Below, in pieces: positions 6,613 to 64,000 of a DNA stretch of 64,000 nt. The stretch lies in NCBI GenBank assembly GCA_039583875.1, contig CM077166.1, forward strand, positions 91,696,564 through 91,760,563, read 5' to 3'. Origin of the DNA: Platanthera guangdongensis. Taxonomy: Eukaryota; Streptophyta; Magnoliopsida; Asparagales; Orchidaceae. Positions within the stretch are counted from its first letter, which is position 1. Each line of letters opens with the position of its first letter. The translations under genes were made by a program, and so were the position numbers. The notes beneath the pieces were generated by a model. The model was not told where the DNA came from. It saw nothing but the letters and a program-made list of their open reading frames with translations, and made no database searches.

Positions 6613-6810
6613 TGTTGGAACCCTAGTTCTGATTTGGGCAAGGATCACTATTAGGTTTGTTTAGATTGACCCGTTTACTTTCAGTTTTGCCTCAAAAGGA
6701 CTCTCCAGAATTGCTGAAAGAATTCTGAGAAATGCAGTTAAGTCAAAGTCAGAAAATCAGTTCGACGATAGTCGAACTCAGGTCGATGAATGGTTATCTA
6801 AGGTCGACGA
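6613..6810 (+). repeat. Element C 5' LTR, first part
   Basis: It matches the start of the 3' LTR at 41607 (GGAACCCTA, GGCAAGGATCACTATTAGG and onward). Relative to that copy it lacks a 28-bp piece after GATTGACCC. It is cut at the GACGA target site by G1 and continues at 15645. Confidence 0.9.
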
Positions 6811-8782
6811 TGTAACACCCCCATCTGTCGCATGGCATATAACAGAAGGTCCAGCTGGAACCCGACTCCATATATCACACACAGTCGGAAGGGATACTAA
6901 ATGAATAATCAAACCAACCAATAAAGACTACTCGTCCTAATCACAGAGCATTCTAGCGGAAGATTTTAAAGTTGAAAGAACCCAAAATTAAATCCATCAA
7001 TATGAATGTCCACAGCTACAACAACAGGAATGAAACCCCAAATACACAGAAATGGGTACATGGCCTTATGGCCTTACAAATGTTCACTTAATAAAGAGTG
7101 TTTTACATACATCGGCTCGCAGGCCGGCCACACATGATAAATATAAAAAATAGCTATTCTACGGCCTTCTAGGGCCAGCACAGCAACATGGGCTCCAGCC
7201 CGCTATTTGGCGCTCGGCTCCGCAGCACCTGCAAGCACATACCACCGTACGATGGCAAATAAAGCAACGGTCAGCTAAAAGCCGACCAAATTATAACGAC
7301 CCCGCCCCTTACTCGGGACGGCGGTGCTCTTTCCCTGCATAACATTAGCCCAACAATATATATAGCGCAATATAATTTTGCCACAGGTGTAGGCTCGCAC
7401 TGCCAAACACCCCATGCACTCAGGGCACATTCATGGTGAACCCTGACCCATCAGTGCATTCACCACCACCCCCAGGATGGCAACAACATGTGAGCATTTA
7501 GCCTTTCTGACCACCGTCTAAGGCTCCGACTATGCCAACGGCCAGTCTACGTCTTCGGGTCTCTCGCACCGAACCACATAGCCTAGGTCCAATTCCACTT
7601 GCCCGTTGCTCACGCCGCATGTCCAATTTAAGTCCTTTGCGCGGGCCAAGCTTCTCTCGGATCCCAAATTTTCCAAAACAATCTCATAACCCAGTTATGA
7701 TCAAGGCCGGTTCCCAGACCGCCAAGTTAGCAGAACACGTTTCCGCTCAATTTTCCGGGTGCGCCTTGAAGCTAACCTCCAAGGATCCCTGCTGCAATCT
7801 ACCGCGTAGAAACCCGAAAAAAACCAAAGCACGGAGTCTTCTCCGGCAAAACCACATCAAATGCAACATCACCGATCCAGACAAAACACGTCCGGGTAGG
7901 CTTCACACACAATGCCTATGCCCGTACTTACGATTCCGGGCTCTATATGCAACACAAGGGGGACTATTCACATCAACCCCAAGGAACACCACGCACTCGC
8001 CGCACACTCGTGGGAGCGGGGTTCCCTATGCAAAAGAAAGAGCTTCAAACGCTCAAGTTGAGAATCGTTACCCTTGTAGTCCGTTTTGGCGCCATGGAAA
8101 AACTACGCGGTTAGAACTCTTCGCAACGACCTTCCCTCCACGGATCCGCTCTCTGATTTCGAAACGGTACTCCGATGCTCCGCCGGCGGCCGGAAACCTC
8201 CTTCTTCTTCCTCTTCTCTCTCACTTTGGAAGGGGAGAACTTTGGAGAGAAAATGGGGAATTAACCTCCTATTCCCGGCCTAAAATAGAGCAGGGACTCA
8301 TCTGAGCCGTCAGATCTAAATTAAAGAAAACGAACGGCTCGGATCTGCACAAAATTCTCCAGACCTGGGCCGAACACGGCTTGGCACACGGCCGTGTCCC
8401 AGGCCGTGTGCCTCGATCCAGGCATGATCGTCGAACTGAGAAATGCACACGGGGCAAGACACGCTCGTTTCTGACCTGACACGCCCGTGTCGGGTTCCTC
8501 GACACGCCCGTGTTCGTGGGCGTGTCACGCATAACCACCACGGCAACGGACACGACCCATCAGGATACGGGTTGGGACACGGGTTGGCACACGCCCGTGT
8601 CGGATGACACGCCCGTGTCATCCGGCCGTATTTCTGGCCGTGTCCTTCTCGGGTTGAAAATGGCCAAAAATCACCAGCCAGACACGGCCTTGGACACGCC
8701 CGTGTCCTAGGCCGTGTACCCATACAGGCACCAAAAACCCTTTTTTCGCGACCGACTCGCACACAACTTTCGGGGCGTTACA
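6811..8782 (-). repeat. G1 3' LTR
   Basis: On the plus strand it begins TGTAACACCCCCATC and ends GGGGCGTTACA; on the coding strand it reads TGTAACGCCCC to GGTGTTACA. Its coding-strand 5' third (8383-8722) holds the ACACGGCCGTGT palindrome array. A 257-codon open frame on the plus strand (7532-8305) is not kept in the related G2 LTR. Confidence 0.92.
8383..8722. repeat. ACACGGCCGTGT / GACACGCCCGTGTC palindrome array in G1 3' LTR
   Basis: About 15 copies of GACACGCCCGTGTC, CACACGGCCGTGTCC and half-units GGCCGTGT or ACACGGG are packed in 340 bp. Homologous arrays lie at 15239-15579 (other G1 LTR), 35200-35615 (S1), 59170-59812 (G2) and, in an Athila/Tat-like element, at 46430-46545 and 48370-48695. 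Confidence 0.9.
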
Positions 8783-8836: not shown

Positions 8837-11800
8837 CTAAATGATACCTGAGTGGAATAATTCGGGGTATTCCTCCAACATAGCTTGCTCTCGCTCCCAA
8901 GAAAGCTCCTCACGTCCGCAATTATCCCAACGGACTTTTACCATTCAGAACTCCTTGTTGCGGAGTCGTTTGACTGCAACATCTTCAATTCGTACTGGCT
9001 TGACCCTTGTTGTTAACTCATAATCAACCGGTACCTGATTGTCCGTAACGATCTACAAAGGCTCTTGCACTGCCTTACGCAACACCGATACGTGGAATAC
9101 ATCATGCAGCCCACTCAACTCCGTCGACAGCTTCAACCTATACGCCGCCTCGCCAACACGCTCCAGAATTTCAAATGGTCCAAGGTATCTCGGACTCAGC
9201 TTCTTCAAGCGGCGAACCCTCGATACACCCTTGAACGACTTGATCTTTAAATATACCATGTCGCCAACGTTGAACTCCACATTTCTATGTTTGGCATTGT
9301 AATACTTTGATTGTCTATCCTGAGCAATCTTCAGCCTTTCCTGAATTGTCTGTATCATTGAAGTGGCATCTTCCACTGCTTGACGTTTATACAACTTCGA
9401 TTCGCCTGCTTCCAACAAAGACAACGGCGTACGACACTTCCTCCTGTACAAGGCTTCGAAAGGCGCCATTCCAATACTTGCCTGAAAGCTGTTGTTGTAA
9501 GCAAACTCCACCATGTACAGGTGATCCTCCCAATGCTTCCTGAAATCTAGGATGCACATGCGAAGCATGTCCTCCATAGTCCTGTTGACTCTCTCGGTTT
9601 GGCCATCTGTCTGCGGGTGAAAGGCTGTGCTGAACTTTAGCTTAGTACCCAACATACCATGCACCAACCTCCAGTCATTTGACGTGAAGCGTCCATCACG
9701 ATCACTCACAATACTGCGAGGCACACCATGCAATCGTACAATACTATCCACGTAGAGTTTGGCTAACTTTTCCACCGGATCCTCCTTTCTCACTGGGATA
9801 AAGTGCGACACCTTTGTCAACCTATCTACGACCACCCAAATGGCGTTGTTTCCCTTCTGCGACTTCGGCAAACCGTGCACAAAATCCATAGATATGTCGT
9901 CAAACTTCCATTCTGGGATAGGAAGTGATTTCAAGAAACCTCCGGGCTTCTGGCATTCCGCCTTCACTAATGCACAAATACGACACTTGGCCACATAAAG
10001 TGCCACATCCTTCTTCAAACCCGGCAACCAGAATAATTTCTTCATGTCTCTATACATCTTTGTGCTTCCCGGGTGGATTGAGTACTTGGTATGATGAGCC
10101 TCATACATCAATTCCTCCCGAATACTATCCGCACTAGGAACGCATAGTCGACCGTCCTTCCTTAGCAACCCATCTTCAACCACAAACTGGGAATTTGACC
10201 CATCCAAAGCTTCATCCAAGATTTGCTTCATGCTGCTATCCAGAACCAAAGCCCGCCGAACTCTATCCGCTAGATCACACTGCACCTCTGTCCAAAAAAG
10301 TTTCGCCTCGGCACTAGACTGCTTATCGACGCAAGATATCTCCAATGCCTCCAACTCTTGGACCAATCTCTCATCATGTACTGATAACCAATTGGCTTGT
10401 GCGAGAATCTTACGACTCAACGCATCCGCCACCGCATTTCCCTTCCCAGGTACATAGTGTATCTTGAAGGTGTAGTCCCCTAAGAACTCCATCCACCTCC
10501 TCTGCCTCATGTTCAGATCCTTTTGGTCCAATAGGTACTTCAAACTCTTATGATCGGTGTAAATATCGACCTTCACACCGTACATATAGTGCCTCCGAAG
10601 CTTAAGAGCAAATATCACGACCACTAACTCTAAGTCGTGGACTGGATAATTCCTCTCGTGAACCTTCAGTTGTCTTGAACCATAAGCTATCACTCTCCCA
10701 TGTTGTAGCAGAACACAGCACAAACCACTACCCGAAGCATCACTATAGATCTCGAACCCTTCGGTTCCACTTGGCGAACATAAAATGGGCGCCGTGGTCA
10801 ACCGCCTCTTCAATTCTTCAAAAGCCTGTTCGCACTCCGGAGACCACACAAACTTCTGATCCTTTCTTGTCAATGTCGTGAGTGGTAGTGCTATCCACGA
10901 GAAGTTCTCTACGAAGCGCCTGTAGTAGCCAGCAAGCCCCAGAAAACTCCGGACCTCTGCCACTATAGTCAAAGTATGCCACTCCCGTATCGCCACTATC
11001 TTTGCCGGATCCACAACTATTCCTTCTCCACTGACAACATGACCAAGGAACGCTATCGAGGATAACCAGAATTCATACTTGGAGAACTTTGCATACAACT
11101 GATTTTTCCTCAATGTCTCCAACACCATGTGTAAATTCTTATAGTGATCCTCCTCGCACCGTGAATACACCAGGATATCATAGATAAATACTATCACAAA
11201 CTGATCCAAGTATTCTTTGAACGTCCTATTCATCAGATCCATAAACAGGGATGGCGCATTCGTCAACCCAAACGGCATAACCGTGAACTCGTAATGCCCA
11301 AACCGCGTACTGAATGATGTCTTTGGGATGTCGCTCTCCCTTATCCTCAACTGATAGTAACCGGACTTCAAATCTAACTTCGAATATACAGTTGATCCAA
11401 CCAGCTGATCAAATAGAACGTCAATCCTCGGGATTGGATATTTGTTCTTCTCCGTAAGTTTGTTCAATTCCTGATAATCGATACAAAGCCGCAAGCTCCT
11501 ATCTTTCTTCTTAACAAAGAGAACTGGTGCGCTCTAAGGCGACGAACTTGGACGCACATAACCTTGCTCTAGCAACTCTTGCAGTTGCACCTTCAACTCT
11601 GCCATTTCTCTTGGGGCTATCCAATAGGTTGAGCGTGACACCGGTTTGGCACCCGGTACCAGCTCTATAGTAAAGTCTATCTCCCGCTGAGGAGGGGCTC
11701 CTGGGAGATCATCTGGAAACACATCAGGATACTCGGACACAACTGGGATGTTGCCCAAACTAGGTTTAGGCGTCGAAGTCTGCACTAGAGTGACATACAG

Positions 11801-12222
11801 TTCTGCCCCAGACCGAACTGCCTTGAACACCTGAAGGGCCGATATCAGAACTTTCCCTGACCCCTTCATGCCCGCAAAAGTAGTCTCCCGATCAGTGTCC
11901 AGACCCAACTTGACTTCTTTACGGTTGCAATCAATGTATGCACTCTGCTCCGAGAGCCAATCCATACCGAAAATTACATCGAACTCCACCAACGGTAGAA
12001 CCAACGCCCGCAAATCGAACTCCCGGTCTCCAATCTGAATCTTCACAACACAAACCCTATCCGCACGCATTGAGCACCCATTAGGCAACAACACATCCAA
12101 CTTGTTTTCTGCCATCGAGAACGGAACTCCGATGCGCGATATAAACCTTTCAGACAAGAAGGAATGTGATGCTCCCGTATCAAAAAGGGCTCTCGCCAGA
12201 AACCCAAAGATCAACACAAAGC
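8837..12222 (-). pseudogene. G1 pol: protease, reverse transcriptase, RNase H, integrase, chromodomain-like tail
   Basis: One continuous frame runs from the candidate splice acceptor (12222) to the stop at 8839-8837. In order: aspartic protease with DTGA near 12180; RT from about 11560; RNase H with its TDHKSL box near 10540; integrase with an HHCC zinc finger, catalytic Asp boxes MDFVHG and SDRDG and a Glu box QTERVNRT; then a degenerate chromodomain (8850-8980). The first Asp of the RT catalytic box is replaced: the motif reads FIYDIL near 11192-11175, where G2 has FIDDIL. In-frame stops lie at 11536-11534, 9055-9053 and 8947-8945. The enzymes would copy element RNA and insert it; this copy cannot make active RT. 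Confidence 0.9.
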
Positions 12223-12299
12223 CTAGCACTAACAAACGTAAGCTAACAAATACGAAGGTAACAACTATAAAAGTTAAACCACGGTAATTTAACTCATAC
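12223..12299 (-). other. Candidate 77-bp spliceosomal intron between gag and protease of G1
   Basis: On the coding strand the segment starts GTATGAG after ACAG and ends GTGCTAG, is T-rich, and is 77 bp long. Unspliced, the gag frame ends two codons after the split codon (ATG AGT TAA). Removing it joins gag (codon phase with G at 12300) to the protease frame exactly, at the point where homologues in general run straight from gag to protease. G2 has a 76-bp counterpart at the same position (63323-63398). Splicing is inferred; no transcript is available. Confidence 0.65.
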
Positions 12300-13376
12300 C
12301 TGTCACCACGTCCGCTTGCTTTATGGCCTCCTGTAGACCAAGGTTGTAGACTCTAGGCTGGGCTGGAGCATGATGGGACGCGGTTGACTCCACCGCCTTC
12401 CCTTTCTCCTCAAAAGTCGCTCCAGGTCTCCTCTAGGACATTGAACGTCCGCTCCAACACTCCCGAGCAAAATGCCCCGTCTTCCCGCAGTTGTAGCAAG
12501 CTCCGGGGACTCGACTTGTAGTTTCCCCCGATGCATCAGCCGAAGGGGCTGAGTTCGAAGTCCTCCGCTTCTTGTTCCATCTACGGAAACATGTCTTGTT
12601 ACTTGGCACCTTGAACTCGGTCTTCCTTTCTCCTGGGTCCTTCTCCTCTTGAACTTTCTTCGCAACCTTTTCCAACGATCGGGCCGAATTGACCAAGGCT
12701 AGGAAGCCCTGCGCCTTAGGCCCAGCAAGGAGTAACTGTAAATTGCCGCGAAGACCCTCATAGAATCGGTTGGTCTTCCTCTCTTCTTCTGAAAACATAC
12801 ACCAGCATAACGACCCAACCGTGTGAACTCGTGCAGATATTCGTCCACGCTTCTGGATCCCTGAGTCAACCCAAGAAATTGATTCTCCATCTCCAACTTC
12901 TGAGCAGAAGGTACAAATCTGGCTAGGAACAATCTTGAAAATTCCTCCATCGGCACATCCGCAAGTTGCCTTCCCACTAGAATATGAAACTCCAACTCAT
13001 ACCACCACAGCCTCGCTTCACCTTCCAAAAGAAAAGTTGCTATGGTGGTCTTCTGCCACTCCTCGGTCATTGTGGCCGTCAAGACCCTCTGTATGGAAGA
13101 GAACCAGTCCTCAGCTTGAGTTGGCATTCCAACCCCATTAAACCTCGGAGGATTAAAGCCCATCACATACTTCAGCTGCCTTTCCGTAGTTCTTCTCGGC
13201 TCTACCAACTCCACTGCTGCACGTTCCACCACTCTCGGCTCTGTCACCCTAACCGGTTCTTGCTCATTCGCAGGAGGTGCGCGATGCATTTGCCCTGCAG
13301 GTTGGGCATTTATCATTGCGAACACGGTTTCAGCCACCATCCTAATGGTTTCCGCTGAAGGAGGTGTAGCAGGCAC
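12300..13376 (-). pseudogene. G1 gag (capsid and nucleocapsid)
   Basis: The ATG at 13376 opens a retrotrans-gag domain (residues about 60-190; LEGEARLWWYE and SVDEYLHEFTRL boxes). The frame is lost near 12810 by an indel and continues in another frame (12798 onward) through a zinc knuckle CYNCGKTGHFAREC near 12490-12450. One TAG follows at about 12435, after which the frame stays open to the candidate intron donor at 12300. The product would form the virus-like particle and bind RNA. Two lesions make it a pseudogene. Confidence 0.88.
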
Positions 13377-13642
13377 GTCCCTTGGTGCACTACTTTCCGC
13401 TGATTGCGGACGCTTTTACTGACCAGCACCGCTCCTAGCTGCCTAAATTAGCAAAGACACACGATTAGACAACATACAAATTGCTAAAAGCAATCATTGG
13501 AACACTCAGGTTCCACAAAACAAGTGTATTTTTCATTCCTAAGTGGACATTCATGGGTTCTTTTGATGTTATAACGATGACGCACACATGTGCTCACCAC
13601 CCCTTAAAAGAATTCGCCCACGAATTCATTTAAGCTTGACCG

Positions 13643-13665: not shown

Positions 13666-15639
13666 TGTAACACCCCCATCTGTCGCATGGCATATAATAG
13701 AAGGTCCAGCTGGAACCCGACGCCATATACGACAGACAGTCGAAAGGGATACTAAATGAATAATCAAACCAACCAATTAAGACTACTCGTCCTAATCACA
13801 GAGCATTCTAGCGGAAGATTTTAAAGTTGAAAGAACCCAAAATTAAATCCATCAATATGAATGTCCACAGCTACAACAACAGGAATGAAACCCCAAATAC
13901 ACAGAAACGAGTACATGGCCTTATGGCCTTACAAATGTTCACTTAATAAAGAGTGTTTTACATACATCGGCTCGCAGGCCGGCCACACATGATAAATATA
14001 AAAAAAACAGCTATTCTACGACCTTCTAGGGCCAGCACAGCAACATGGGCTCCAACCCGCTATTTGGCGCTCGGCTCCGCAGTACCTGCAAGCACATACC
14101 ACCGCACGGTGGCAAATAAAGCAACGGTCAGCTAAAAGCCGACCAAATTATAACGACCCCGCCCCTTACTCGGGACGGCGGTGCTCTTTCCCTGCATAAC
14201 ATTAGCCCAACAACATATATAGCACAATATAATTTCGCCACAGGTGTATGCTCACACGGCCAAACACCCCGTGCACTCAGGGCACATTCATGGTGACCCC
14301 TGACCCATCAGTGCATTCACAACCACCCCCAGGATGGCAACATCATGTGAGCATTTAGCCTTTCTGACCACCGTCTAAGGCTCCGACTATGCCAACGGCC
14401 AGTCCCCATCTTCGGGTCTCTCGCACCGAACCACATAGCCTAGGTCCAATTCCACTTGCCCGTTGCTCACGCCGCATGTCCAATTTAAGTCCTTTGCGCG
14501 GGCCAAGCTTCTCTCGGATTACAAATTTTCCAAAACAATCTCATAACCCAGTTATGATCAAGGCCGGTTCCCAGACCGCCAAGTTAGCAGAACACGTTTC
14601 CGCTCAAATTTCCGGGTGCGCCTTGAAGCTAACCTCCAAGGATCCCTGCTGCAATCTACCGCGTAGAAACCCGAAAAAAACCAAAGCACGGAGTCTTCTC
14701 CGGCAAAACCACATCAAATACAACATCACCGATCCAGACAAAACACGTCCGGGTAGGCTTCACACACAATGCCTATGCCTGTACTTACGATTCCGGGCTC
14801 TATATGCAACACAAGGGGGACTATTCACATCAACCCCAAGGAACACCACGCACTCGCCGCACACTCGTGGGAGCGGGGTTCCCTATGCAAAAGAAAGAGC
14901 TTCAAACGCTCAAGTTGAGAATCGTTACCCTTGTAGTCCGTTTTGGCGCAATGGAAAAACTACGCGGTTAGAACTCTTCGCAATGACCTTCCCTCCACGG
15001 ATCCGCTCTCTGATTTCGAAACGGTGCTCCGATGCTCCGCCGGCAGCCGGAAACCTCCTCCTTCTTCCTCTTCTCTCTCACTTTGGAAGGGGAGAACTTT
15101 GGAGAGAAAATGGGGAATTAACCTCTTATTCCCGGCATAAAATAGAGCAGGGACTCATCTGAGCCGTCGGATCTAAATTAAAGAAAACGAACGGCTCGGA
15201 TCTGCCCAAAATTCTCCAGACCTGGGCCGAACACGGCTTGGCACACGGCCGTGTCCCAGGCCGTGTGCCTCGATCCAGGCACGATCGTCGAACTGAGAAA
15301 TGCACACGGGCCAAGACACGCCCGTGTCTGACCTGACACGCCCGTGTCGGGTTTCTCGACACGCCCGTGTTCGTGGGCGTGTCACGCATAATTGCCACGG
15401 CAACGGACACGACCCATCAGGACACGTGTAGGGACACGGGTTGGCACACGCCCGTGTCGGATGACACGCCCGTGTCATCCGGCCGTGTTTCTGGCTGTGT
15501 GCTTCTCGGGTTGAAAACGGCCAAAAATCACCAGCCAGACACGGCCTTGGACACGCCCGTGTCCTAGGCCGTGTACCCCTACAGGCACCAAAAACCCTTT
15601 TTTCGCGACCGACTCGCACATAACTTTCGGGGCGTTACA
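13666..15639 (-). repeat. G1 5' LTR
   Basis: It is a near copy of 6811-8782, with the same ends and the same palindrome array (15239-15579). Being on the coding-strand 5' side it should hold the promoter; I see no convincing TATA box that I would place. It ends at 15639, followed by the TSD GACGA. Confidence 0.92.
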
Positions 15640-15644
15640 GACGA

Positions 15645-16646
15645 ACTCTGAGTTCCTTCCCTAAACTCAGGTCGACGAACTCTCATCTTAAGCAAGAAGC
15701 CCTGCTCGACGAAATCCAGCTGAGCTCGACGAACTCCAAGTTCAGGTCGACGATCACTGAGAAAGGTTCAAGACAGATTCCCAGCTCGACGAAAATAGAA
15801 GCTAAGCTCGACGATCTGCGAGCTCCGGTGGACGAATTCTGTGCAGTTATTCCAGGCCTATTTATTTACAGTTGCCAGATTGAATTAAGGATTAATTACA
15901 GTCAGAACATTTAGTGCTAAAAATTACCGATGGAAATAGTCGTTCAAAGCGGGCAGTTTTAGAAGATAATTGTGGATTAATTCCCAATGCATCTTCTACT
16001 CTCGGAAATGCCTCAGCCGTTATCAAATAAATGAATCCAAATGTTTGAATCACATATAAGAGATTTATAGAAAGACAGAAACAACAACACAACAAGATAG
16101 AGACATAGTGAAGGCTTTTCCTTTTATAAAGAAGGAGGAACTCTGCATCAATCAACATATTCACAGAGTTCTCCATCTCCTCCAAGCTTTTCAAAAGACA
16201 CACATTCATATCAGTCTAAGAATCTTGCTAGAGACATCATCAATCTGAAGGCCTGGACCCTGAAGCAAAGCTTCCCTCCATCCTTCCACAACCAATCTAT
16301 ATCTCAGGGGGAGCTATGACATCATCAACATCCACTAGTCATCTCTCAGTGATTTGAGATAGAGAAGACAACATCACTTCTTTCCCTTTCCCGTGTACAG
16401 GGTTATAACTCCCTTCAAAAGTTATTCTTGTTTGCAAGTCTCCTGATCAAAAGACTTGGGTTGGTTTTTGAGCACCTAATCAAAAGCTCATTGGTGACAG
16501 TCACTTGATCAAAACCTGCTAGTTGATTCCTACCAGGGTGGTAGAAGAGTGGATGTACATAGTTAGAGGGAACCACTATAATCCTTGTGTCTTCTGGATT
16601 GCTTGCTTTGCCTTCTTTATTTTTGTGCTGTGATTTTCTTTTCTTA

Positions 16647-16724
<78 letters not shown>

Positions 16725-18017: not shown

Positions 18018-18289
18018 TCTCTTTTCAGTAAAAGACCTATCTTACCACAAAGGAACAGTAGTATGTGATAGTAATCAAAAGATATAAGTCTTAGTCGACA
18101 TAGAGGTTATACCCGTGACTGTAATATGGAAGGCTACAACAGTAGAGAGAGACTGTTTAGTCTACTAAGCTAGAAATTCTTCTCAGATTTGGGCAAGGAA
18201 TTTAGGCAAGGAATTTGTGCAAGGAGAAGTAAATAGGGGAGATTGTTTGTTTTATAAAGAGGAAACTTCTTAGAACTATGAAGCAATAT
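18017..18289. other. Non-coding remnant of element C left of B
   Basis: Follows the gag end; contains AAATAGGGGAGATTG at about 18230, which looks like an extra copy of the C polypurine tract. No gene is seen. It is cut by element B at 18290 and continues at 41466. Confidence 0.6.
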
Positions 18290-20040
18290 TGAAAGTGAGG
18301 GGTTAGATCTGGAATACTCTATAGGGGTGGGGGGAATAGAGTATTTAGTGTTTTTATAAAATTTTCTAACTACTTGAATCTAGTCCAAGTGGTGTAGGAA
18401 TGAAATTAAAGCACAAACACAGCTATCCTAACTATCACAGCCACAGCAAGAAACAAAAGAAAAGAGCAACCAGACAACACATGAAATTTATAGTGGTTCC
18501 CCAACCTGGGTACATCCACTCTACTACCACCCTGGTAGGATTCCACTCAGATTTTTGATCAGGTGCCTGACACCAATGAGCTTTTGATCAGGTTCTCAGA
18601 AACCAAACCTCAATTCTTTTGGTCAGGTGACTTGCAACCAGAAATAACTTTTGCAGGGAGTTAAGAACCCTTTATACAGTGGGGGTGAGAGATTGATTTT
18701 GTCTTCTCTTTCTCAATGTACAACTGAGAAGACTTATGTGGATTTGATGTTAGCAAATGCTCCCCCTGAGATGTAGAATGGTTCAGGGAGATGGGGCTTT
18801 GCTTCAGGGTGATAGGCCTTCAGTCCTTCAGCTTTGACCAGACAGTACATGAACTTCTTGACAGATAGAGGATTTGTTGTCCTTTGAAGTATCCTGAGTG
18901 TAGAAGAAAGAATACTGTTGATTTTGATTTGATGTTCTTTTTCTTCAGATTGTTGATATTTTTCTGGTTTAGATCTTGTATTTTTGTATCAGCTTTCTAT
19001 CTCTTTTTGTTTCAGAGTGTTGTCGAGAGAGAGAGAGAGCAGCAGAAGATTCTTGATTCCTGATTCACAAAAAACTGATTGACTGTCTGTTTTCTTGCTT
19101 GCGTATCTTTCTCAGTCACTATCTAGAGGAGGAAGAAAAATCCCTTTTATATTTTTCAGATTATCTTCCTTTTGAAATTTGAAATCTCTTCTGCATTCAT
19201 TGTTGATGGCCTGGAGAATTTTTTGCATTTAATGATTTCCCCAACTGTCCCATGGAAAAATGGTAAGCAATAATCCTGATGAAGACCGTAATTAATGCTC
19301 CGTCTAACGGTAATATTCAGAGAATATTATAGCATTAATTACTCAAGAATTATTATAGTAGGAAAGGGACAGAAGGATGGAAATAACCAAGTCTAGATTC
19401 GTCGAATAGAAAACAGAAATCGTCGAGCTGAGTCCATAGTTCGTCGAGGTGAGGAGTTATGTTAGTAGACCAGATGGCATTGAATATAATTCTGACTGTA
19501 ATTAATCCTTAATTAATTCTGCCAACTCTAACTGATTACACAGAATTCGTCGAGCTCAGTTTCTTATTTCGTCGAGCTGTCTTGAGTTCAGCGATCGTCG
19601 ACCTGAGCTTGGAATTCGTCGAGCTAAGACAACAGTTCTTCTTTAACTTCTGGTGTCGACACAGCTTCTGTGAAATGTGTCGACACAAGTCCTGTGTGTC
19701 GACACAATGGCTTCTGTTGTCGACACAGTTGGTGTTGACAGATGTTCTGGGTATCAACACAAGTCATGCGTGTCGACACAGTTGATGTCGACAGATGTTC
19801 TGTGTGTCATCACAAGTCCTGTGTGTCGACACAATCTGAGTTCTGGTGTCGACACAGCCTTTCCCAAGTGTCGACACAATTGCTTGAGTCTCTGGCAGTC
19901 TGTTGAAGGTTGTTCTATGTGATGTTGATTCTAAGGACTTGGCCTAGACTCTAGGACACAACCATGACCCTGGCTATACATGATGGGTCATATGATCCTA
20001 ACTTAGTGAACCTAGCTCAAATTAAACTAGGGATCCAACA
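18290..20040 (-). repeat. Element B 3' LTR
   Basis: Plus-strand ends are TGAAAGTGAGG and GGATCCAACA. It carries the conserved U5 block (GGTTCCCC and TACATCC, about 18490-18535), TGATCA-containing repeats (18555-18640), a TCGTCGA array (19397-19628) and a TGTCGACACA array (19655-19885). Confidence 0.9.
19655..19885. repeat. TGTGTCGACACA palindrome array in B 3' LTR
   Basis: Ten or more copies of TGTCGACACA joined by AGTCCTGTG or ATGGCTTCTG spacers. It sits beside the TCGTCGA array but has a different core. The counterpart in the other LTR is at 41075-41308. Confidence 0.9.
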
Positions 20041-20056
20041 ATCTCCCCATATTTGG
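20041..20056 (-). other. Element B polypurine tract
   Basis: Coding-strand AAATATGGGGAGAT directly precedes the LTR start TGTTGGATCCC. Confidence 0.8.
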
Positions 20057-21060: not shown

Positions 21061-21390
21061 TGTTGGGTATTGTATCCACGATTACCTGGATTTGAGGAAG
21101 CCACCCGTCAAGCTAAGATGAATTCACAATGTATTTGATAAACTTCTTCAAGTTGTACTTGCAGTTTCTCCACGCTAAGTGCACACCAATGTCAGGGTGC
21201 AGTAGGTCAATATACACGGGTCTGCACGACGTAATCCCTCGTTGAGCAGATCAGTGTGTTGGCCTATGTGTACTCTCTCTATTGGAGTGCACTTACTTTC
21301 AAGTACAGGGCCGTTCATATGCAAGAAGAGACAAGGAGCATGGAGGATCAAGGAGAGCTCCTAGGGGAAGACGAAAATTCGTCCAAGGCA

Positions 21391-21737
21391 AATTCGACGA
21401 GAATCACCAAGTGATTCTCGCCGATTCGGCGAGAATCACTAGTGATTCTCGCCGAATCGACGAGAATCATCAGTGATTCTCGCCGACTCCTTCTAGCCAT
21501 CTCAAAATGGTGCCAAGTAAGATTCGGCGAGAATCACTTGTAATTCCCGCCGAACCAGTGGCCAAGCAGCCCATGTACACAGTAAAAGTCGTTGAGAATC
21601 AGTAAGTGATTCGACGAGAATCACAAAACGATTCTCGACGAATCGTCGAGAATCACTTGGTGATTCTCGCCGATTCGTCGAGAATCGTCTGCGATTCTCG
21701 CCGATTCGTCGAAAATCGCCTGCGATTCTCGCCGATT
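21391..21737. repeat. GATTCTCGCCGA / TCGGCGAGAATC palindrome array in D 5' LTR
   Basis: About eight hairpin-forming pairs of GATTCTCGCCGA and its complement TCGGCGAGAATC (with TCGTCGAGAATC variants). The copy in the 3' LTR is 28477-28821. It sits upstream of the TATA box, so it should lie in the U3 promoter region and in the 3' end of the transcript. Confidence 0.92.
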
Positions 21738-21858
21738 TTGACTTGGCGTTTTCTCAGAATGCTGCTGGACCGGATTCTGCTTTTGGACTAATTTGAACCG
21801 GAATTTGGGGATTTCTTTTGTGGGTCCCACAATGGTCAAATTTGCTGTATCTACAGGG

Positions 21859-21866
21859 TATAAATA
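21859..21866 (+). promoter_or_regulatory. TATA box of element D
   Basis: TATAAATA about 120 bp after the palindrome array; transcription would begin about 30 bp downstream. The same octamer is at 28943-28950 in the 3' LTR. Confidence 0.7.
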
Positions 21867-22725
21867 CATGGGTATTTTGAACAGTAAACCACGGAGAAAA
21901 AGGAACAGAAACCGAGCCGCAACCTAACCCTAGATCCACGACTCCTCTCCGCCGCCGCCGTCGCGCTCGGGCAAGTACGTCGCCGCCGCTGATCGTTCTT
22001 CTTCGTGATATTCGGCGACAGAAGCTTAGCAAAGCTTGAGTCTCACGTGTCTATCCAGAGATCTCTTGTCTCTCGATTTGTTGACCGGGAAAAACTCCTC
22101 CGTCCGAATCGATAGAGACGACCGATCCTAGAGTGACCGTTGGTAGACCTAGTTTGCTTCGCTACGAAGTTTGGATCTCCAAGTTCAGCAGTCGCTCTTC
22201 ATCGTAGCTGCCGACTCCGAACCAAGCCGCCGCTCGGATTGCCGCCGCCGGTTCCGGGAGATCCTCTCCAAGTGAGACCAAGGTCGTAGACTCTTCATCG
22301 ACCTCGAGAACACGTCGTCGAACGAAGAGGAACACCGTAGTCTCCGAAAGAAGTTTGTATCTCATATACATTCCATATTTACTTTTGTTGTAAGGGAACT
22401 TTTGTTCCATGTTGTAAGGGTTGGGTGCAACCCGTTTTGTGGGAGTGTTGACTCTCACGTGTGGAAGGGCTCCTTCCGTTAGTGAAGGGATTGGATTTCA
22501 ATCCTGTTGGAGAAGTGACCGAGTCGTCCCTTGTTGGGGAGACAGGTCGAAGGGGGAAAGTGGATGTACCCAAGTCGGGGAACCACTATAAATTTGTTGT
22601 GTATTCTGTGTGCTGTGCTTGTTGTTTTTATTGTGCAGGTACATCCGTAAATTCCGCAAAAGAACCACACGTCACCTATTCCCCCCCCCCATAGGTGTAC
22701 ATAGCTGACACTAGGTGGACTTTCA

Positions 22726-22740
22726 AGTGGTATCAGAGGG
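22726..22740 (+). other. Element D primer binding site
   Basis: AGTGGTATCAGAGGG directly after the LTR, matching the initiator tRNA-Met complement with a final mismatch. Confidence 0.8.
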
Positions 22741-22799
22741 AGGTTACTCATCAAAAAGGTTAACACCTTGAGTAGAATCCTGCCACCAGTATCAGAAGC

Positions 22800-24374
22800 A
22801 TGGAGCTTGAGTATGAGATGCCGCCACTCAACCTCCCCGCTTGCACAAAGGATTATTATCCCATCTGGCGAATGAGAGTGTCATGTCACCTTGATGCTAT
22901 CGATCCTCGAGCATCCTTCATCCTGGAAGAGGGTCCGTTTATTCCCATGAAGACCTCCGACTCTGGGATCAAAGTGCCCATGTGCATTGCTGAGATGTCA
23001 GAAATGGAACTCTCACTTTTCCAGCTGGACCAGAGGATTCGACAAATTATCATGGATGTCTGGTCTGGAGCCTCTCGCTCTAGATTGGAAAAATGTAAAA
23101 CAGCTAAATCTCTGTGGATGATGATCTCAGAGCTGATGGGGGGGGGGTCAGAGAAAGCTGAAATATGCTGCTAATCAGAGGATGAAGCGTATGTGGGGGT
23201 CCTCACTTCTGAAGATGAATGCAAGGATCCTTCGGATTGCATCAGAGCTCCAATATCCGTGTCATAGACTGAAGAAGATAGTGAGGAAAGCAGCTCCGAC
23301 GAGGACGAGACATTGGTCATTGATTCTAATGACAATAACTCAGATGAGCAGGTATCATCTTCATCCTGCCCCATATCTTTTGACTTTTCTGAAGACAGAA
23401 ACTGCTCTCCTCCAGAAAATACTGATTCCCTGAAGAGAGCCCTTCAGGAAAGCAATCTACTTGCTGAGGAGCAAGCTCGAGAGATTGCTCGACTGAAGAT
23501 CTTGTTGGTTCTCCAATTGGCATCCAACAAGGTCAAGGACTCTAAGATCTCAGCTCTAGAGAATAGTCTAGATAATGAGAAACGTATAGTATCTAACTTT
23601 TCCAAAGTTGATGCTATAAAGAGAAAACAAGAAACCGGGTGGATCTCCCGGATTATTCAGGGATGGAGAAATGGGGAAACAGTATTCCGACCCCCCACTC
23701 CAAGCAGGAAGGCAACTCATCATGCCTTCAGGTATGACCACAGGAATAATCGTGGTCACTGCAAGGGTGATCTGCCCCCATGTGGAGACACCCGGAGTGC
23801 AAGGGCTTGCATGGGCACCCACGAGAGAATACCTAAGGCTCATTCTGAGCCCTTTGTATTCACGGCCACTGCCACAACAAAGTGTGGATCTGCATGTCCC
23901 AGTTCACAGGAGACTTCTCACCATTCGAGGACACGGGATAAGGAGGATAGAAGTCATGATGTCAGGCTTCATGGGGCCTCAGCAAGAGAGATGCCTGAAA
24001 GAATGGCACCACCTTCTCGGCCTCATAACGCTCACATCATACATTCGTTCCACCCTTCCTCGTGTCACGATGGAAGAGGAATTTGTGTGACAAGAACATG
24101 CCCCATCCCGTTTAGACCTAGGACCGTGACTACGTCAGTCACTAGATCAGGTCAAAAACGGCGATACAACATTCACCCCTGTTGGTGCTGCGGCAAAGTG
24201 GGGCACTTTGCCATTGACTGTTGGCACAACCCCTCTGTGCCCACAGCAAGGGCTTATCCACATTCTAGGGACAGAGGTAGTCTTCCAGACAGGTTTTCGG
24301 AAGGAAGGCAGTTGCGTGCTTATGCTAATAGAGACCTAGGACCCAATATGATTTGGGTTCCTAAGGTAAAGTAA
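22800..24374 (+). pseudogene. Element D gag, shortened
   Basis: The ATG at 22800 opens a UBN2-type Gag N-terminus (YYPIWRMRV and TAKSLWMM boxes). After a run of nine G at about 23141 the capsid part is cut short and followed by an acidic Ser-rich linker, a coiled-coil-like stretch (about 23430-23600), a basic region and a zinc knuckle CWCCGKVGHFAIDC near 24180-24225. It ends GPNMIWVPK at about 24365, the usual Sirevirus Gag end. Two stops (23172-23174 and about 23268) break an otherwise single frame. Much of the capsid is missing. Confidence 0.8.
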
Positions 24375-28130: not shown

Positions 28131-28144
28131 AAATAGGGGGAGAT
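28131..28144 (+). other. Element D polypurine tract
   Basis: AAATAGGGGGAGAT directly before the 3' LTR; identical in layout to that of element C. Confidence 0.85.
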
Positions 28145-56588: not shown

Positions 56589-57573
56589 TGTAAGACCCAC
56601 CCCCCCTTTTTTTTCTTTTTCAACACCGGGGTCTTAGGCCCAGAACCACCGTTTTGCGGTGACTCCTTCATGCCCTGAAGGGTCATCACCACAAAGCGCC
56701 GATTCTGTCGGCTAATTCGATCACAGTAAAGTAGCACAATAAAGTAAATGCAAACTAGCAGTCCACAGAAAATCACATATCATATAGATAATCTCGACGA
56801 AGGGAGTGTCCACAGAATAATATATCAGAGTACTGAAATGAGGGCTTATGCCCGGTACATCATGTCCTCACTACAAATCACTCATGCGGAAGCAAATGCT
56901 ATAAATCTACTCAAGGTCGAGACTCACGGTCCCGACTGTATGAACTCCGGAGCTAGACTGCCCCATCTTCATGCGCACCGGTCTCTGGGGGTGCTCCTCC
57001 ATGCTGGGCTCTACGGTTCCCTAAAATGATGCGGTTCGAAAACAGTTAGTCTAAAAGACTAAGTCCTATCATCCCCCACCCCTTCCCCCATGATCCTAGG
57101 CACCGAGCGGAGAGGAAGAAAGGGGAGGACTTGAAGGTGGAGAATAATCAAAACAGATGTCAGCGGACCTATACTAGCAATACTATAATAGGTATGGACA
57201 ATAAGCTGAAACATGAAAAGTAATCTTCACTTATGTGAGAACACATAAGCCAAGGGGTCTTCTGCAATGCTCCCATCGTATAAAAAGTCTCATACCAATT
57301 TATATGTTGGGGTGTCGGTTATCAAACAGCAGTAAATATATATATCAAAATTGACCTTAATTTATAAACTTGCCCACACAAGCTTATAGACCAAGGGGTC
57401 ATTTTGCATAGCCTAAAGTATAAGCGTCCCATTCCACTTATACTTTAGGTGTCAGGGTTAAATGAATCAATTATGCTATGACATGCAGGTGGGTATGATG
57501 GATCATGCAAGTGCAACACACACACCCGACTCTATGCACACAGACCTTTAGTTCCCCCTTTCTAGAGCCGTAA
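56589..57573 (-). mobile_element. Element I: partial gypsy-type LTR
   Basis: Starts TGTAAGACCCACCCCCC, the same form as the TGTAACACCC starts of G1 and G2, so probably a minus-strand gypsy LTR. No coding similarity is seen in about 985 bp. It is interrupted at 57574 by G2, and its other end lies beyond the window. Confidence 0.55.
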
Positions 57574-59877
57574 TGTAACACTCCCTATCCGTCGCATAGC
57601 ATATAGCAGTAGGTCCGGCCGGGGCCCGACGCTGTATGCCAAAGACAGACCGGGTGGTTACTCATGGAAACCATCCAACCAATCATAACGTCCTACACAG
57701 AGCATTCTAGCGGAAGCAGATTAATAAGAGTTGCAAATAAGAACCCAGCATTAAAGCATGAATGTACACTAATACCAAATAGGAATGTTACAAAATACAT
57801 CAGTACAAACCTTAAGGCCTTACAAAATGTTTCACTTGATATTACATGATTTACAAACCACGGCACGCAGGCCGGTCATACATGAATAAAACAGTAAACA
57901 CTTCCAAAAAGGACTTCTAGGGCCGGCTTCGCATTTGGGCTTTAGCCCGCTATTTACCGCATGGTCCAGCAGCACCTGCAAGCAACAACCCACCGCACGG
58001 TGGCAAAATAAGGCAACGGTCAGCAATGCTGACCAAATTATAACGATCCCGCCCCCAACTCGGGGTGGCGATGCTCCTTCCCTGCATTTCATTAGCATAA
58101 GCGAGCAATATATAACCATAATCATTTCACCACAGACGTTGGCTCGCACGGCCACACGCCCCGTGCTCTCAGGGCACATTCTCGGTGAACCGGTCGATGT
58201 CTCGTCAATTAAAGCCATAGACATTCCGGACTCACCACCGCCACTTTGACGGCCAAACCTATGAGCAATTCGTCTTCCTGGCCTGGGTCACGACAATTTA
58301 AGCCATTGACCGCCGAAGACCCTAATCTATGCCAACGGCAAGTGCCACGTGCCTTTAGGTCTCTTTAACCGAACGACATAGAACGGGTACGGTTCCATCT
58401 AACCCGTGCTCACATCGTAACGACAATTTAAGCCATTTGCGCGGGTCAAACTTCCACCGAGTCCCATTTCCATCACAATTCACATAACCCAGTTATGTTC
58501 AAGTTGGCTCTCAGGCCACCAAGTTGGCAAGATCTCGCATCCGCCCAGTTTTCCGGGTGCACCTTTGGGTTAATCCCCAAGGCTCCCTGCTGCAATCTAC
58601 CGCGTAGAAAACCCGAAAAACAATCAATAGCACGGAGTCTTCTCCGGCATTTATGCAATGCAACATCAATGATCCAGACCAACATGTCCGGGTAGGCTTC
58701 ACACATCATGCCTATGTCCGTTCTCGCTTACGGACTCTAAACAATGGGGACTTCACATATCTACCCGAAGGAACGCCTCTAACTCTCCGCAAACTCGCGA
58801 GAGCGGGATTCCTATGCAAAGAAGGAGAGCTACTCATGCTCAAGAAGAGAATCGGTACCCTAGCGTTCCTCTTTGGCGCCATTGAAAAGTAAGCGGATGA
58901 AAAGCACCACACTAGCTTTGCCTCCGTGGATCCGGAGTCGGCTTGCGATTTGGAGCTTCCAAGCTCCTCCAATGGCCCGATCTAGCTCCTTCTTCCTCCC
59001 TTGGCTCTCCTCTCTCTCTAAGCTTTTAGAAAGATGATAACTTATGAAAAGTATGGGTTTCTAAGTCAAATCCTGGGTATATCCCTTCAAGAACAACCCC
59101 CAGCCGTTGGATCATCAATTAAAGAAATGAACGGCTTTGATTCGGGACTGAAATGCCCAATCTGGACCGAACACGGCCTGGCACACGCCTGTGTCCAGGG
59201 CCGTGTGCCTCATTTGCCGTCAAAATCGGCTCGCCTAGAACCTCACACGGGTATCGAACACGCCCGTGTTCGACCTAACACGCCCGTGTTCCGCCTGACA
59301 CGGCCGTGTGGCCGGCCGTGTACCCCCATCATTTTTCACCGAAAATAACCCAAGCACTGCACGGGTTCTAGGACACGCCCGTGTCCTTGCCAGTGTCACC
59401 TCAACAAGCCTGGGCTCCAGGCCATGTACACGGTCTCGACACTCGATACTTCGTCGAGCGAAGATCGTCGACCTGATGACACGGCCTGGGACACGCCCGT
59501 GTCCGAGGCCGTGTGCCTTATCTCGACATAATGTCGAGACCAAAGTGTCGACTTCCCGGGACGAGTGTCGATACTGGTTGACATGCCCTGCGACACTCCC
59601 GTATCGTAGGCCGTGTGCCATGTCTCGACACTTCATCGAGCGCAGAGTGTCGACTTCGCGGGCTAATTGTCGACACGGGTCGACACGCCCGTGTCGCAGG
59701 CCGTGTGCCCAGTCTCGACACAATGTTGAGACCAAAGTGTCGACTTCCCGGCTCAGTGTCGACACAAGTTTGACACGCCCTGGGACACACCCGTGTCCCA
59801 GGCTGTGTGCCTGCAGCCAGAACTCAAAACTGGCCCAAAACATCCCCCATCGCTCTTTTGAGTTTCGGGGCGTTACA
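57574..59877 (-). repeat. G2 3' LTR
   Basis: Plus-strand ends are TGTAACACTCCC and GGGGCGTTACA, 2304 bp. It shares the CATTCTAGCGGAAG and GGCCTTACA landmarks with G1 and S1. The array 59170-59812 mixes ACACGGCCGTGT palindromes with TGTCGACA and GTGTCGACTT units. No gene seen. Confidence 0.92.
59170..59812. repeat. Mixed ACACGGCCGTGT and TGTCGACA array in G2 LTR
   Basis: GACACGCCCGTGTC-type units alternate with TGTCGAGACC, AGTGTCGACTTC and GTGTCGACAC units. The second core equals that of the copia element B array (19655-19885). Confidence 0.85.
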
Positions 59878-62800
59878 ACTCTCCCCCTCTTAAAAGAATT
59901 TCGTCCTCGAAATTATATAAAGGAAAGACATGTACAAAACCAAAATTTGTACCTGAGCGAAACAACTTCGGATACTCGTCAAGAATAGTCTGCTCTTGAT
60001 CCCAAGAGAGCTCCTCACGACCGCAATTGTCCCACCGGACCTTGACCATCCTGATCTCTTTATTGCGTAGCCGCTTGACCTTCGAGTCCTCAATCCGTAC
60101 GGGCTTGACCTTTGTCGTCAGCCCACTATCCACCGGCACTTGATCAACCGCGATCACTTGTGTAGGCTCTTGCACTGCCTTCCGGAGCACCGAAATATGG
60201 AATACATCATGTAAACCACTAAGCTCCACTGAAAGCTTCAACCGATAGGCCGCTTCACCAACTCGCTCCAGAACCTCAAACGGTCCAAGGTACCTCGGGC
60301 TTAGCTTTTTCAATCGCCGCACCCGCGAGACACCCTTGAACGGCTTAATCTTTAAGTATACATAATCGCCCACAGCGAACTCCACGTTCCTGTGCTTGGA
60401 ATTATAGTACTTCGCTTGCCAGTCCTGAGCGATAAGCAACCTCTCCCGAATGGTTCTCACCAAAGAAGTAGCATCCTCCACTTCCGATCGCTTATACAAC
60501 TTTGACTCACCCGTTTCTAACCAAGACAACGGCGTGCGACATTTTCTACTATATAGGGCCTCGAAAGGCGCCATCTGAATACTCGTTTGGTAGCTATTGT
60601 TGTATGCGAACTCCACCAAATAAAGGTGGTCTTCCCATTGCTTTCCAAAATCCAAGACACACATGCGGAGCATGTCTTCCATGGTTCTATTGACCCTCTC
60701 GGTCTGCCCATCCGTTTGCGGATGGAAGGCTGTGCTGAATTTCAGTTTTGTTCCCAACATTTGCTGCACAAGCCTCCAATCATTGGACGTGAACCGCCCA
60801 TCTCGGTCACTCACGATGCTGCGGGGCACACCATGAAGCCGTACTATGTTATCCACATAAAGCTTTGCCAACTTCTCCACCGGATCATTCTTCCTATGCG
60901 GAATAAAATGCGACACCTTCGTTAACCGATCAACAACCACCCAAATGGCGTCGTTCCCCTTTTGCGACCTTGGCAAACCGTGCACAAAGTCCATAGAGAT
61001 GTCGTCAAATTTCCACTCCGGAATAGGCAAGGACTTAAGAAATCCTCCCGGCTTTTGGCACTCCGCCTTTACCAAGGCGCAAGTTTGGCACTTCGCTACG
61101 TAGAGCGCCACATCCTTCTTCAAACTCGGCCACCAAAACAGTTTCTTCACATCACGGTACATCTTCGTGCTCCCCGGGTGAATCGAGTATTTGGTATGGT
61201 GTGCCTCGTACAACAACTCCACCCGCAAATTACCCACACTTGGGATGCACAGACGACCGTCCTTCCAAAGTAATCCGTCCTCCATGACGAATTTATGAAT
61301 TCGACCCATCCAGAGCCTCTACCATGAACTGCTTCATATGAGCATCCATATCCAAAGCCTGCCGAATACGATCAGCCAGGTCATATTGGACTTCAGTCCA
61401 ATTCAGAACTGCTTCAGCGCTTGATTGCCTATCCACACAAACAATCTCCAACTCCTCCAACTCCCGCACCAAATGCTCATCATGCACCGATAGCCAATTG
61501 GCTTGAGCTGGGGCTCGGTGACTCAACGCGTCCGCAACCGCATTCCCTTTACCAGGCACATAGTGGATCTTGAATGTATAGTCCCCCAGGAACTCCATCC
61601 ATCTACGCTGCCGCATATTCAGATCCTTCTGATCAATAAGATACTTCAGGCTCTTGTGATCGGTGTAGATATCAATCTTCACACCGTACAAATAGTGTCT
61701 CCACAGCTTCAAGGCAAAAATCACGGCCGCTAACTCCAAGTCATGGACTGGATAATTCCTCTCATGCACTTTTAGCTGTCTCGAGCCATAAGCTATTAGA
61801 CTTCCATGTTGCAGTAGCATGCAACCCAAACCGCTGCCAGAAGCATCGCTATAAATCTCAAAGCCTTCGGTCCCATAGGGCGAACTCAGCACAGGCGCCG
61901 TGGTCAACCGACACTTCAACTCCTCAAAAGCTCGCGCACACTCCGGCGTCCAAATGAACTTATGCTCCTTCCTCGTCAAAGTAGAGAGAGGTAACGCTAT
62001 CCGCGAGAAGTTCTCTACAAAGTGCCTATAATAGCCGACAAGCCCCAGAAAACTCCAGACTTCCGCTACCGTAACAAGCTCAGGCCACTCCCGTATCGCA
62101 ACGATCTTTGCCGGATCCACAGCAATACCCTCTCCACTTACTATATGCCCGAGGAACGGCACTGAGGATAGCCAAAACTCGCACTTCGAGAACTTGGCAT
62201 ACAACTGATTTCTCCTTAGCGTCTCCAACACCAAATGAAGATGCTTGAAGTGATCTTCCTAACTTTGTGAGTACACCAAAATATCGTCGATGAAGACGAT
62301 CACGAAATGGTCCAAGTACTCCCTGAAAGTCCTGTTCATCAAATCCATGAACACTAACGGTGCATTAGTCTGCCCAAACGGCATGACCGTAAACTCATAA
62401 TGCTCGTATCTCGTACTAAACGCTGTCTTCGGGATATCCCTCTCCCTTATTCGCAGCTGATAGTACCCAGCCTTGAGATCTAACTTCGAGTACACCGTCG
62501 ACCCGACTAACTGATCAAAAAGATCATCAATTCGGGGGATCGGGTACTTGTTCTTCTCCGTCAACTTGTTGAGCTCCCTATAATCAATACATAGCCTTAA
62601 GCTTCCGTCCTTCTTCTTAACAAAGAGAACCGGTGCACTCCAAGGCGAAGAACTCGGGCGTACATACCCTTGCTCCAACAACTCTTGCAGTTGAACTTTC
62701 AGCTCCGCCATTTCCTTAGGCGCTAGCCGATAAGGAGATCGTGACACAGGCTTTGCACCTGGCACTAGCTCCATCGTAAAATCTATCTCCCGCTGAGGCG

Positions 62801-63322
62801 GGGCTCCAGGAAGATCTGCGGGGAACACATCAGGGTATTCTGATACCACTGAAATACAATCCAACGCGGGCTTCGGCTTTGCAACCTCCACTAGTGTAAA
62901 GAACAGTTCTGCACCGGCACGAACCGCCTTCACCACCTGAAGAGTAGACATCAACGTCTTGCTCGACCCCTTTAAGCCCGTAAAAGTCATCTCACGACTT
63001 GCTCCCAGCATGACTTCCTTGCGACCGCACTCAATATAGGCTTGCTGCTGCGAGAGCCAGTCCATGCCAAATATAACGTCGAACTCCACCAACGAAAGTA
63101 AAGACGCCTGCAGGTCGAACTCCTGATCCCCAATATGAATCTTAACATCGCAGATCCTATCCGCTCGCATCGAACACCCATTGGGCAACAACACATCCAA
63201 CTTATCCTTCGTCATCGAAGAAAGGACTCTGATGCGTGATATAAATCCTTCGGACAAGAAGGGGTGTGAAGCTCCCGTATCGAAGAGTGCTCGTGCCGGA
63301 TTTTCACAAATCAATACAAATC
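59873..63322 (-). pseudogene. G2 pol: protease, RT, RNase H, integrase, chromodomain-like tail
   Basis: From the candidate acceptor (63322) the frame is open through protease (DTGA near 63290) and RT, with an intact FIDDIL box near 62290, to one TAG at 62261-62259. It is open again through RNase H to 61293, where a one-base insertion shifts it. The last frame (61309-59873) carries the integrase HHCC finger, MDFVHG, SDRDG and QTERVNRT boxes and a degenerate chromodomain (about 60090-59960). Its TAA stop uses the first bases of the LTR (TGTAAC). Two lesions only; otherwise it would encode the full replication set. Confidence 0.92.
59878..59896 (-). other. G2 polypurine tract
   Basis: Coding-strand CTTTTAAGAGGGGGAGAGT directly before the LTR start TGTAACG. 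Confidence 0.85.
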
Positions 63323-63398
63323 ATAAACAAGCAGTGGTAAGGTAACATGTGCATAACAAGTATTTAAGGAAATTGACTTGCTATAAATTAAACCGTAC
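63323..63398 (-). other. Candidate 76-bp intron between gag and protease of G2
   Basis: Same position and nearly the same length as in G1. The donor is GTACGG after ACAG; the gag frame would stop three codons in (TAA). By alignment the acceptor dinucleotide is AT instead of AG, so this copy may no longer splice correctly. Removal would join gag to the protease frame exactly. Confidence 0.55.
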
Positions 63399-64000
63399 CT
63401 GTCACCACATCAGCTTGTTTGATGGCCTCCTGTTGGCCAAGATTATAGACCCTCGGTTGGGCCGGAGCATAGTCGGATGCGGTCGACTCCACCGCCTTGC
63501 CCTTCTCTTCATAAGTAGCTCCTGGCCTTCTCTCAGACTTAGGACGTCCGCTCCAACAGTCACGGGCAAAATGCCCCATCTTTCCACAAGTAAAACACAC
63601 ACCCGGGGTCCGACCCGTAGTCACCCCAGAAGCACCAGAAGGAGCTGGGCCCGAAGTCCTATGCTAATTGAAAGACCTCCGATAGCCGGCCTTTGAAGTA
63701 GTCGGCACTTTAAATTCAGATTTCCTATCACCCAAGCTTTTCTTTGCTTGCACAATCTTCATGACCTTCTCCAAGAACCGGGTAGTGTTGACCAAGGTTA
63801 AGAAACCATGCGTCATCGGCCACGAAAGTAGTAATCTCAACTCATCTCTCAAGCCTTCGTAGAAGCGATTAGTCTTGCGCTCCTCATCCATGATGGTGGA
63901 GCTAGCATATCGACTCAAACGAGTGAACTCATGGAGATATTCATCCACGCTCTTCTCACCCTGAATCAACTTCAGAAACTCATTCTCCAACACTATCTTC
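63399..64000 (-). pseudogene. G2 gag, C-terminal part (truncated by window end)
   Basis: It has the retrotrans-gag end (SVDEYLHEFTRL and RKTNRFYEGL boxes, 63993-63664, ending at a stop) and then a zinc knuckle CFTCGKMGHFARDC near 63597-63556 in an open frame that reaches the candidate donor at 63399. The stop at 63664-63666 breaks it. Confidence 0.85.

Follow-up and report, generated by a model that had tools for sequence, protein, structure and literature searches.

Plant long terminal repeat (LTR) retrotransposons are generally devoid of introns, Ogre and EVADE being among the exceptions named in the cited passages, which also state that retrotransposons require an excess of Gag over Pol and often obtain both from one reading frame (PMC12786077). 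In the copia elements BARE1 of barley and EVADE of Arabidopsis, splicing near the gag/protease border is described as setting Gag against Gag-Pol (PMC3735527, PMC12786077, in the sections cited). Ogre, a Ty3/gypsy element of the Tat lineage known from pea and Medicago, is not a chromovirus and carries its intron between protease and reverse transcriptase (RT). Here we describe a different arrangement, in which chromovirus-type elements are interrupted before the protease by a segment of 70-78 nucleotides (nt). It was found in a window of 64,000 nt (the whole stretch analysed) from the orchid Platanthera guangdongensis, contig CM077166.1, positions 91,696,564 to 91,760,563, in two Ty3/gypsy elements that we call G1 and G2. 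From its sequence features, the segment is very probably a spliceosomal GT-AG intron carried by a large chromovirus-type group, whose retention would yield Gag and whose splicing would yield Gag-Pol.

The segment at the gag/protease border

Both elements lie on the minus strand. In G1 the segment occupies 12223..12299 (77 nt), between gag and protease, with a donor GT at 12299-12298 and an acceptor AG at 12224-12223, and reads directly as GTGACAG/GTATGAG at its start and GTGCTAG/GCTTTG at its end. The counterpart in G2, at 63323..63398 (76 nt), starts as GTGACAG/GTACGG and has lost the acceptor AG at its 3' end. In each element one Gly codon is split after its first base. If the segment is retained, translation proceeds through Gly-Met-Ser to a stop in G1, where the TAA at 12289..12291 (minus strand) is the fourth codon of the retained reading, and through Gly-Thr-Val to a stop in G2. 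Such an early stop is common to all seven intron types compared, after three retained codons in five of them and after five in the other two. As in plant introns, the segment is U-rich relative to its flanking exons: T makes up 47% of it in G1, against 19% on the exon 1 side and 33% on the exon 2 side, and 42% in G2, against 21% and 30%. CTTAC or CTTAT occurs within the first 70 nt of four of the seven types, which we take to fit a branch site. The initial annotation of this DNA had pointed to a T-rich, GT-starting segment at the same Gly codon in both elements, to an unspliced frame ending within three codons, and to an AG present in G1 and missing from G2, all of which direct reading confirmed.

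The ends of the segment are kept among other copies in the 4.25 Gb genome, as expected of a spliceosomal intron. We assembled 60 loci from the 30 best matches to G1 and the 30 best matches to G2, each query included. The G1 set has GT in 30/30 and AG in 30/30, with a measured length of 76-77 nt; one copy measures 76 owing to a deletion just downstream of the segment, a kind of deletion seen in L007, where the TAG is kept. In the G2 set GT occurs in 30/30 and an AG in the corresponding position in 28/30, the two misses being G2 itself and L048. The interruption is also found in well-kept elements, since 9 of the 60 copies have an open gag of no fewer than 380 codons together with a pol frame that is open as far as the retrieved sequence extends. 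Genome-wide counts were obtained with an anchored pattern that fixes 10 letters on one side and 11 on the other, all of them required for a match; the insert equals the gap minus 41 nt, and gaps of 102-132 thus correspond to inserts of 61-91 nt. This intron-sized class holds 12,828 matches at one site. Letters were seen for 21 of these, printed in coordinate order (19 begin with GT and two with AT), and for the 60 similarity-selected loci. Insert length, taken from the first 100 places in the list, which share one contig (C1), is 70-78 nt and leaves a remainder of 1, 2 or 0 on division by three in 55, 31 and 14 cases respectively.

Comparison with uninterrupted relatives places the segment within the protease domain. 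A protein search with the protease piece gave 475 hits. Among the best 120 of these, 75 carry an LFDTG-type motif by pattern match and 66 of the 75 are long enough upstream; the spacing from Gly to LFDTG is exactly 11 residues in 63 of the 66, the exceptions being P0009, P0027 and P0063. The G1 codons on the two sides of the segment, with the insert left out, likewise give 11 residues. In a copy where the exons are joined exactly (see below), the Pfam domain RVP_2 crosses the site, starting at profile position 4, whereas the match on the open pol frame of G1 starts only at position 21; the segment therefore falls within the N-terminal portion of the protease domain. When a G1-type copy is compared with a G2-type one, the last 40 codons of gag show 1, 1 and 19 differences at first, second and third codon positions; the corresponding figures for the 113 codons that open pol are 18, 17 and 50. 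Because changes pile up at third positions, coding constraint is apparent near both borders, in two different frames.

Copies without the segment

If the segment is spliced and the spliced RNA is reverse-transcribed, exact-join copies are expected and other deletion sizes should be rare. The anchored pattern was counted in gap classes 0-30, 31-61, 62-92 and 102-132 (gaps 93-101 falling outside). Gaps of 31-61 gave 184 matches genome-wide; among the 100 listed, 98 have a total length of exactly 62 nt, which corresponds to a 41-nt gap. The neighbouring classes gave one match (0-30) and 17 (62-92), and reversed patterns gave none. By these anchors, the intronless share is about 1.4% (184 of the 13,012 matches in the short-gap and intron-sized classes together). 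In each of the 30 short-gap loci that were fetched (L062-L091), of which one, L084, belongs to a separate family described below, the gap is exactly 41 nt and the frame continues in phase across the join, and the printed joins show subfamily-specific exon letters, both G1-like and G2-like. The initial annotation had proposed a GT/AG intron whose removal brings gag and protease into one frame. The proposal is supported by the 12,828 matches with an insert at one site, the free insert length, the in-phase exact-join copies and their nesting in trees; copies without the segment were searched for and found, and they lack it exactly at the GT/AG borders, as splicing followed by reverse transcription leaves it.

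Two further kinds of junction were seen with the same anchors. L084 (1501-1562) and five other listed places represent a distinct family with an uninterrupted gag-protease junction, VVTGMLYISGHLRKVLFDTGAS, like the annotated Platanthera zijinensis protein P0123, which reads straight through. In L061 (1501-1550) the junction, VVTVSGYPARVLFDTGA, is in phase and 12 nt shorter than the exact join, through a small deletion or another acceptor.

The position of intronless copies was followed in trees built apart from the gag side and the pol side. The careful trees retain 81 of 91 rows, 10 having been dropped as long-branched or distant; the gag tree was drawn and the pol tree only counted. Each requires five changes of state, at least four of them forced by strongly supported branches, and 0% of bootstrap trees show a single origin. 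A quick pol tree of all 91 rows requires eight changes, at least five of them forced. In the drawn pol and gag trees, intronless L081 and the pair L062+L068 lie inside the intron-bearing G1 clade, and intronless L070 lies with seven others inside the intron-bearing G2 clade. Intronless copies thus nest at least three times inside the sampled intron-bearing clades. Since they do so with exact borders, these genomic copies argue, indirectly, that the segment is removed from RNA at these borders and that spliced RNA has been reverse-transcribed and inserted. Splicing followed by reverse transcription would be by far the simplest cause of losses that fall exactly at GT and AG.

Competing explanations and a proposed mechanism

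Other explanations of the interrupted frame have to be set against these data. Programmed ribosomal frameshifting would have ribosomes slip into an overlapping pol frame, the segment being a mere linker. The pol frame of G1 is indeed open upstream of the segment to 12352, overlapping the end of gag, and 33 or 44 open codons precede exon 2 in 27 of the 30 G1-set copies. However, insert lengths of 70-78 nt fall into all three frame classes in the 100 places listed, so that no single shift serves, and just 4 of 60 intron-bearing copies have a slippery X XXY YYZ heptamer within the 120 nt that precede the gag stop, in differing phases. On these two counts we reject frameshifting as the common mechanism; it also leaves losses at the exact GT/AG borders unexplained, and we regard it as very improbable. 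Even less credible is decay, by which dead copies would contain a chance insertion or a degenerate linker whose GT and AG are coincidental. Both G1 and G2 are broken elsewhere and G2 is without its AG, but a chance origin fits poorly with thousands of matches at one site, with copies open in both frames and with codon-position constraint near both borders. It was rejected on the numbers of short-gap and intron-sized matches.

An alternative history would make the intronless state ancestral, the intron being gained repeatedly at one site and the intronless copies being old lineages that owe nothing to spliced RNA. Uninterrupted relatives are common outside the group, the uninterrupted L084 family shares this genome, and basal lines lacking the intron lie around both sampled clades, G1 and G2. 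Yet the placement of L081 and L062+L068 inside one clade and of L070 and its seven companions inside the other, with subfamily-specific exon letters at the join, makes this history quite improbable. One gain of the intron, predating the divergence of G1 and G2, would agree with splicing and subsequent loss. The remaining rival concerns function: the intron might nearly always be spliced and have no regulatory role, the excess of Gag coming from the protease, from translation or from a separate RNA. Efficient splicing is common among short U-rich introns that have good donors, and an intronless lineage appears to have spread. But were spliced RNA the usual genome, intronless copies should dominate, which a share near 1.4% contradicts, and the stop that comes early in the retained reading of 7/7 intron types, at codon 4 or 6, also speaks against constant splicing. 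We consider it unlikely.

Several observations weigh against the intron account itself. Taken alone, the GT/AG conservation in the 60 loci is biased, as the queries contained the insert. Six of the 100 listed short-gap matches belong, by eye, to the L084-type uninterrupted family, and the figure of 184 somewhat overstates the losses because this differently built family is counted within it. Of the 30 fetched intronless loci, only three in the G1 clade and eight or nine in the G2 clade can be compared with intron-bearing near relatives; the eight G2-type copies form one clade on the gag side, but on the pol side they meet L054 and L056 in an open fork. Several of the basal lines without the intron may represent older states and not losses, intron-bearing members of their subfamilies lying outside the sample. 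As for kinship between introns, the full-length alignment of the G1 and G2 introns (50 identities over 85 columns) is no better than shuffled sequences, which reach a mean of 48.5 and a maximum of 56. Over the first 70 nt, 4 of 1000 shuffles are as good, and the intron types form a chain, G1-78a-77b-78b-G2, with 0/1000 shuffles as good at each step; the case for homology comes chiefly from intermediate types, taken from the printed matches and known from their first 70 nt only. The 71- and 74-nt types resemble each other, and their relation to the G2 side is not clear.

Under the intron account, transcripts retaining the segment would give Gag alone, through the stop three to five codons into the intron, and intron-free transcripts would give Gag-Pol. 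Partial splicing may then set the ratio of Gag to Gag-Pol. Intronless matches being about 1.4% of the two classes counted, we infer that unspliced RNA is the main packaged genome; most new copies would derive from it, which would maintain the intron in the family. Where spliced RNA is used now and then, the products would be intronless elements whose frame is fused into one; a lineage of this kind, sampled in eight copies in the gag-side tree, seems to have continued to spread, alone or with help. If this is true, the ratio of intronless to intron-bearing insertions is a fossil record of the packaging of spliced RNA.

The host elements, their surroundings and related systems

G1 is a Ty3/gypsy element whose LTRs are flanked by a 5-bp duplication, GACGA, read in the sequence at 6806..6810 (left copy) and 15640..15644 (right copy). 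Self-comparison gave the 5' LTR at 13666..15639 (minus strand, about 1.97 kb, ends read) and the 3' LTR at 6811..8782 (minus strand), 96.9% identical; their divergence of 0.0316 corresponds to about 1.0 or 1.2 million years under two assumed rates. On the minus strand the 5' LTR is followed by TTTGGTATCAGA, a putative primer site that may fit the initiator tRNA-Met. Exon 1, at 12300..13415 (minus strand), encodes gag, with Retrotrans_gag and a CCHC zinc knuckle; in G1 itself a shift of frame and a premature stop disrupt it. Exon 2, at 9053..12222 (minus strand), encodes pol, with protease RVP_2, RT, ribonuclease H (RNase H), integrase and SH3 (SH3_Tf2-1), and contains an interrupting stop near 11534. 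Further downstream, by eye only, a stretch resembling a chromodomain was noted.

G2 is cut by the end of the window. The 3' part of its gag lies at 63399..64000 (minus strand, with one internal stop), and its pol at 59873..63322 (minus strand) in three open pieces covering protease/RT, RNase H and integrase. Its 3' LTR, at 57573..59309 (minus strand), is about 70% similar to that of G1, and the partner would fall beyond the window. At about 75% identity over 4.1 kb, the two elements are not near copies and represent two subfamilies. The Tekay-like label given to them by the initial annotation agrees with the domain order gag-protease-RT-RNase H-integrase, but is less firm as to the chromodomain: the Chromo match at the C-terminus of the G2 integrase, in the expected place, is weak (E 0.024, below Pfam's cutoff).

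The window holds other repeats. An LTR-like pair at 21061-22725 and 28145-29812 (98.6% identical) encloses a 787-residue open frame at 25526-27889 (plus strand) without Pfam match and a 368-residue frame at 23268-24374 (plus strand) with a weak zinc-knuckle match only; the unit 21061-29812 is perhaps a non-autonomous or unusual retroelement. A Copia-type element at 51097-56455 has 373-bp LTRs, 97.6% identical, and a coding frame halved by one stop near 52995. Long direct repeats of 92-93% identity (18288-20042 with 39715-41467, and 15640-16661 with 41823-42845) lie beside G1 and at other places in the window, and diffuse repeats with ACTCGAGTA-like units occupy its start, at 1-640.

Protein searches found relatives but yielded no genomic DNA from outside this genome, and the sole hint on spread among plants is P0121, an annotated Gag of Platanthera zijinensis. 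It ends in DVVTGTV, the way an unspliced G2-type reading ends, and is 77% identical to the G2-type L033 and 79-80% identical to the intronless L063 and L074. Another annotated protein of this species, P0125, departs from the gag frame at DVVT, the same donor, into sequence that is unrelated by eye; the entry, a gene model and not RNA, looks as though this donor had been used, possibly through a chimeric transcript or a gene-model error. A scan of viral contigs gave seven pattern stretches and no relative.

A search of the open-access literature (PubMed Central, PMC), outside which most subscription journals lie, returned no earlier report of an intron at the gag/protease site of a chromovirus. 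Ordinary Tekay/Del-type chromoviruses share with G1 and G2 the series Gag, RVP_2, RT, RNase H and integrase, with the same spacing in 63 of 66 relatives among the best 120 of 475, but they have one gag-pol frame, and proteins that read through the site show no gag/protease interruption. The centromeric retrotransposon of rice (CRR), a gypsy element, we take to be a chromovirus as well. Its transcripts are described, in the part of the source cited, as spliced so that RT is removed and two open reading frames are made (PMC3735527). This splicing does not join gag to pol, unlike the one proposed here. BARE1 and EVADE, as far as the cited passages go, are opposite in sense: their unspliced RNA encodes Gag-Pol, and splicing out a coding stretch leaves Gag only. 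DNA copies of the spliced BARE form could not be amplified by its authors, according to the section cited (PMC3735527), whereas exact-join DNA copies are numerous in Platanthera. The same passages hold that retrotransposons must avoid reverse transcription of spliced RNA (PMC3735527); our copies indicate that it has happened often enough for many intronless insertions.

Should the intron account be true, chromovirus-type elements join the short list of plant retroelements whose coding transcripts are spliced, with the intron in a new position, and a gag/protease intron with natural intronless revertants becomes one answer to the need for excess Gag that is readable from a genome. Annotators unaware of the intron would probably take such elements for broken. 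On balance we favour, with some reserve, the broader view of a chromovirus clade of thousands of copies in which a tiny intron in the protease domain sets Gag against Gag-Pol, which evolved apart from Ogre, and whose spliced RNA re-enters the genome at about the percent level, founding fused-frame lineages that spread. A gap of 172 bp has been reported in Bianca, the splicing evidence cited in that part of the source being for Ogre (PMC6317226). With an intron that precedes the protease and a weak Chromo match at the integrase end, G1 and G2 do not fit Ogre and its Tat relatives, which are non-chromoviruses with the intron between protease and RT. In Ogre, partial splicing brings two reading frames together in one polyprotein; here the exact-join copies are joined in phase, and partial splicing is presumed. 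These comparisons are best read as pointing to the logic of Ogre in a chromovirus-type element, at another boundary.
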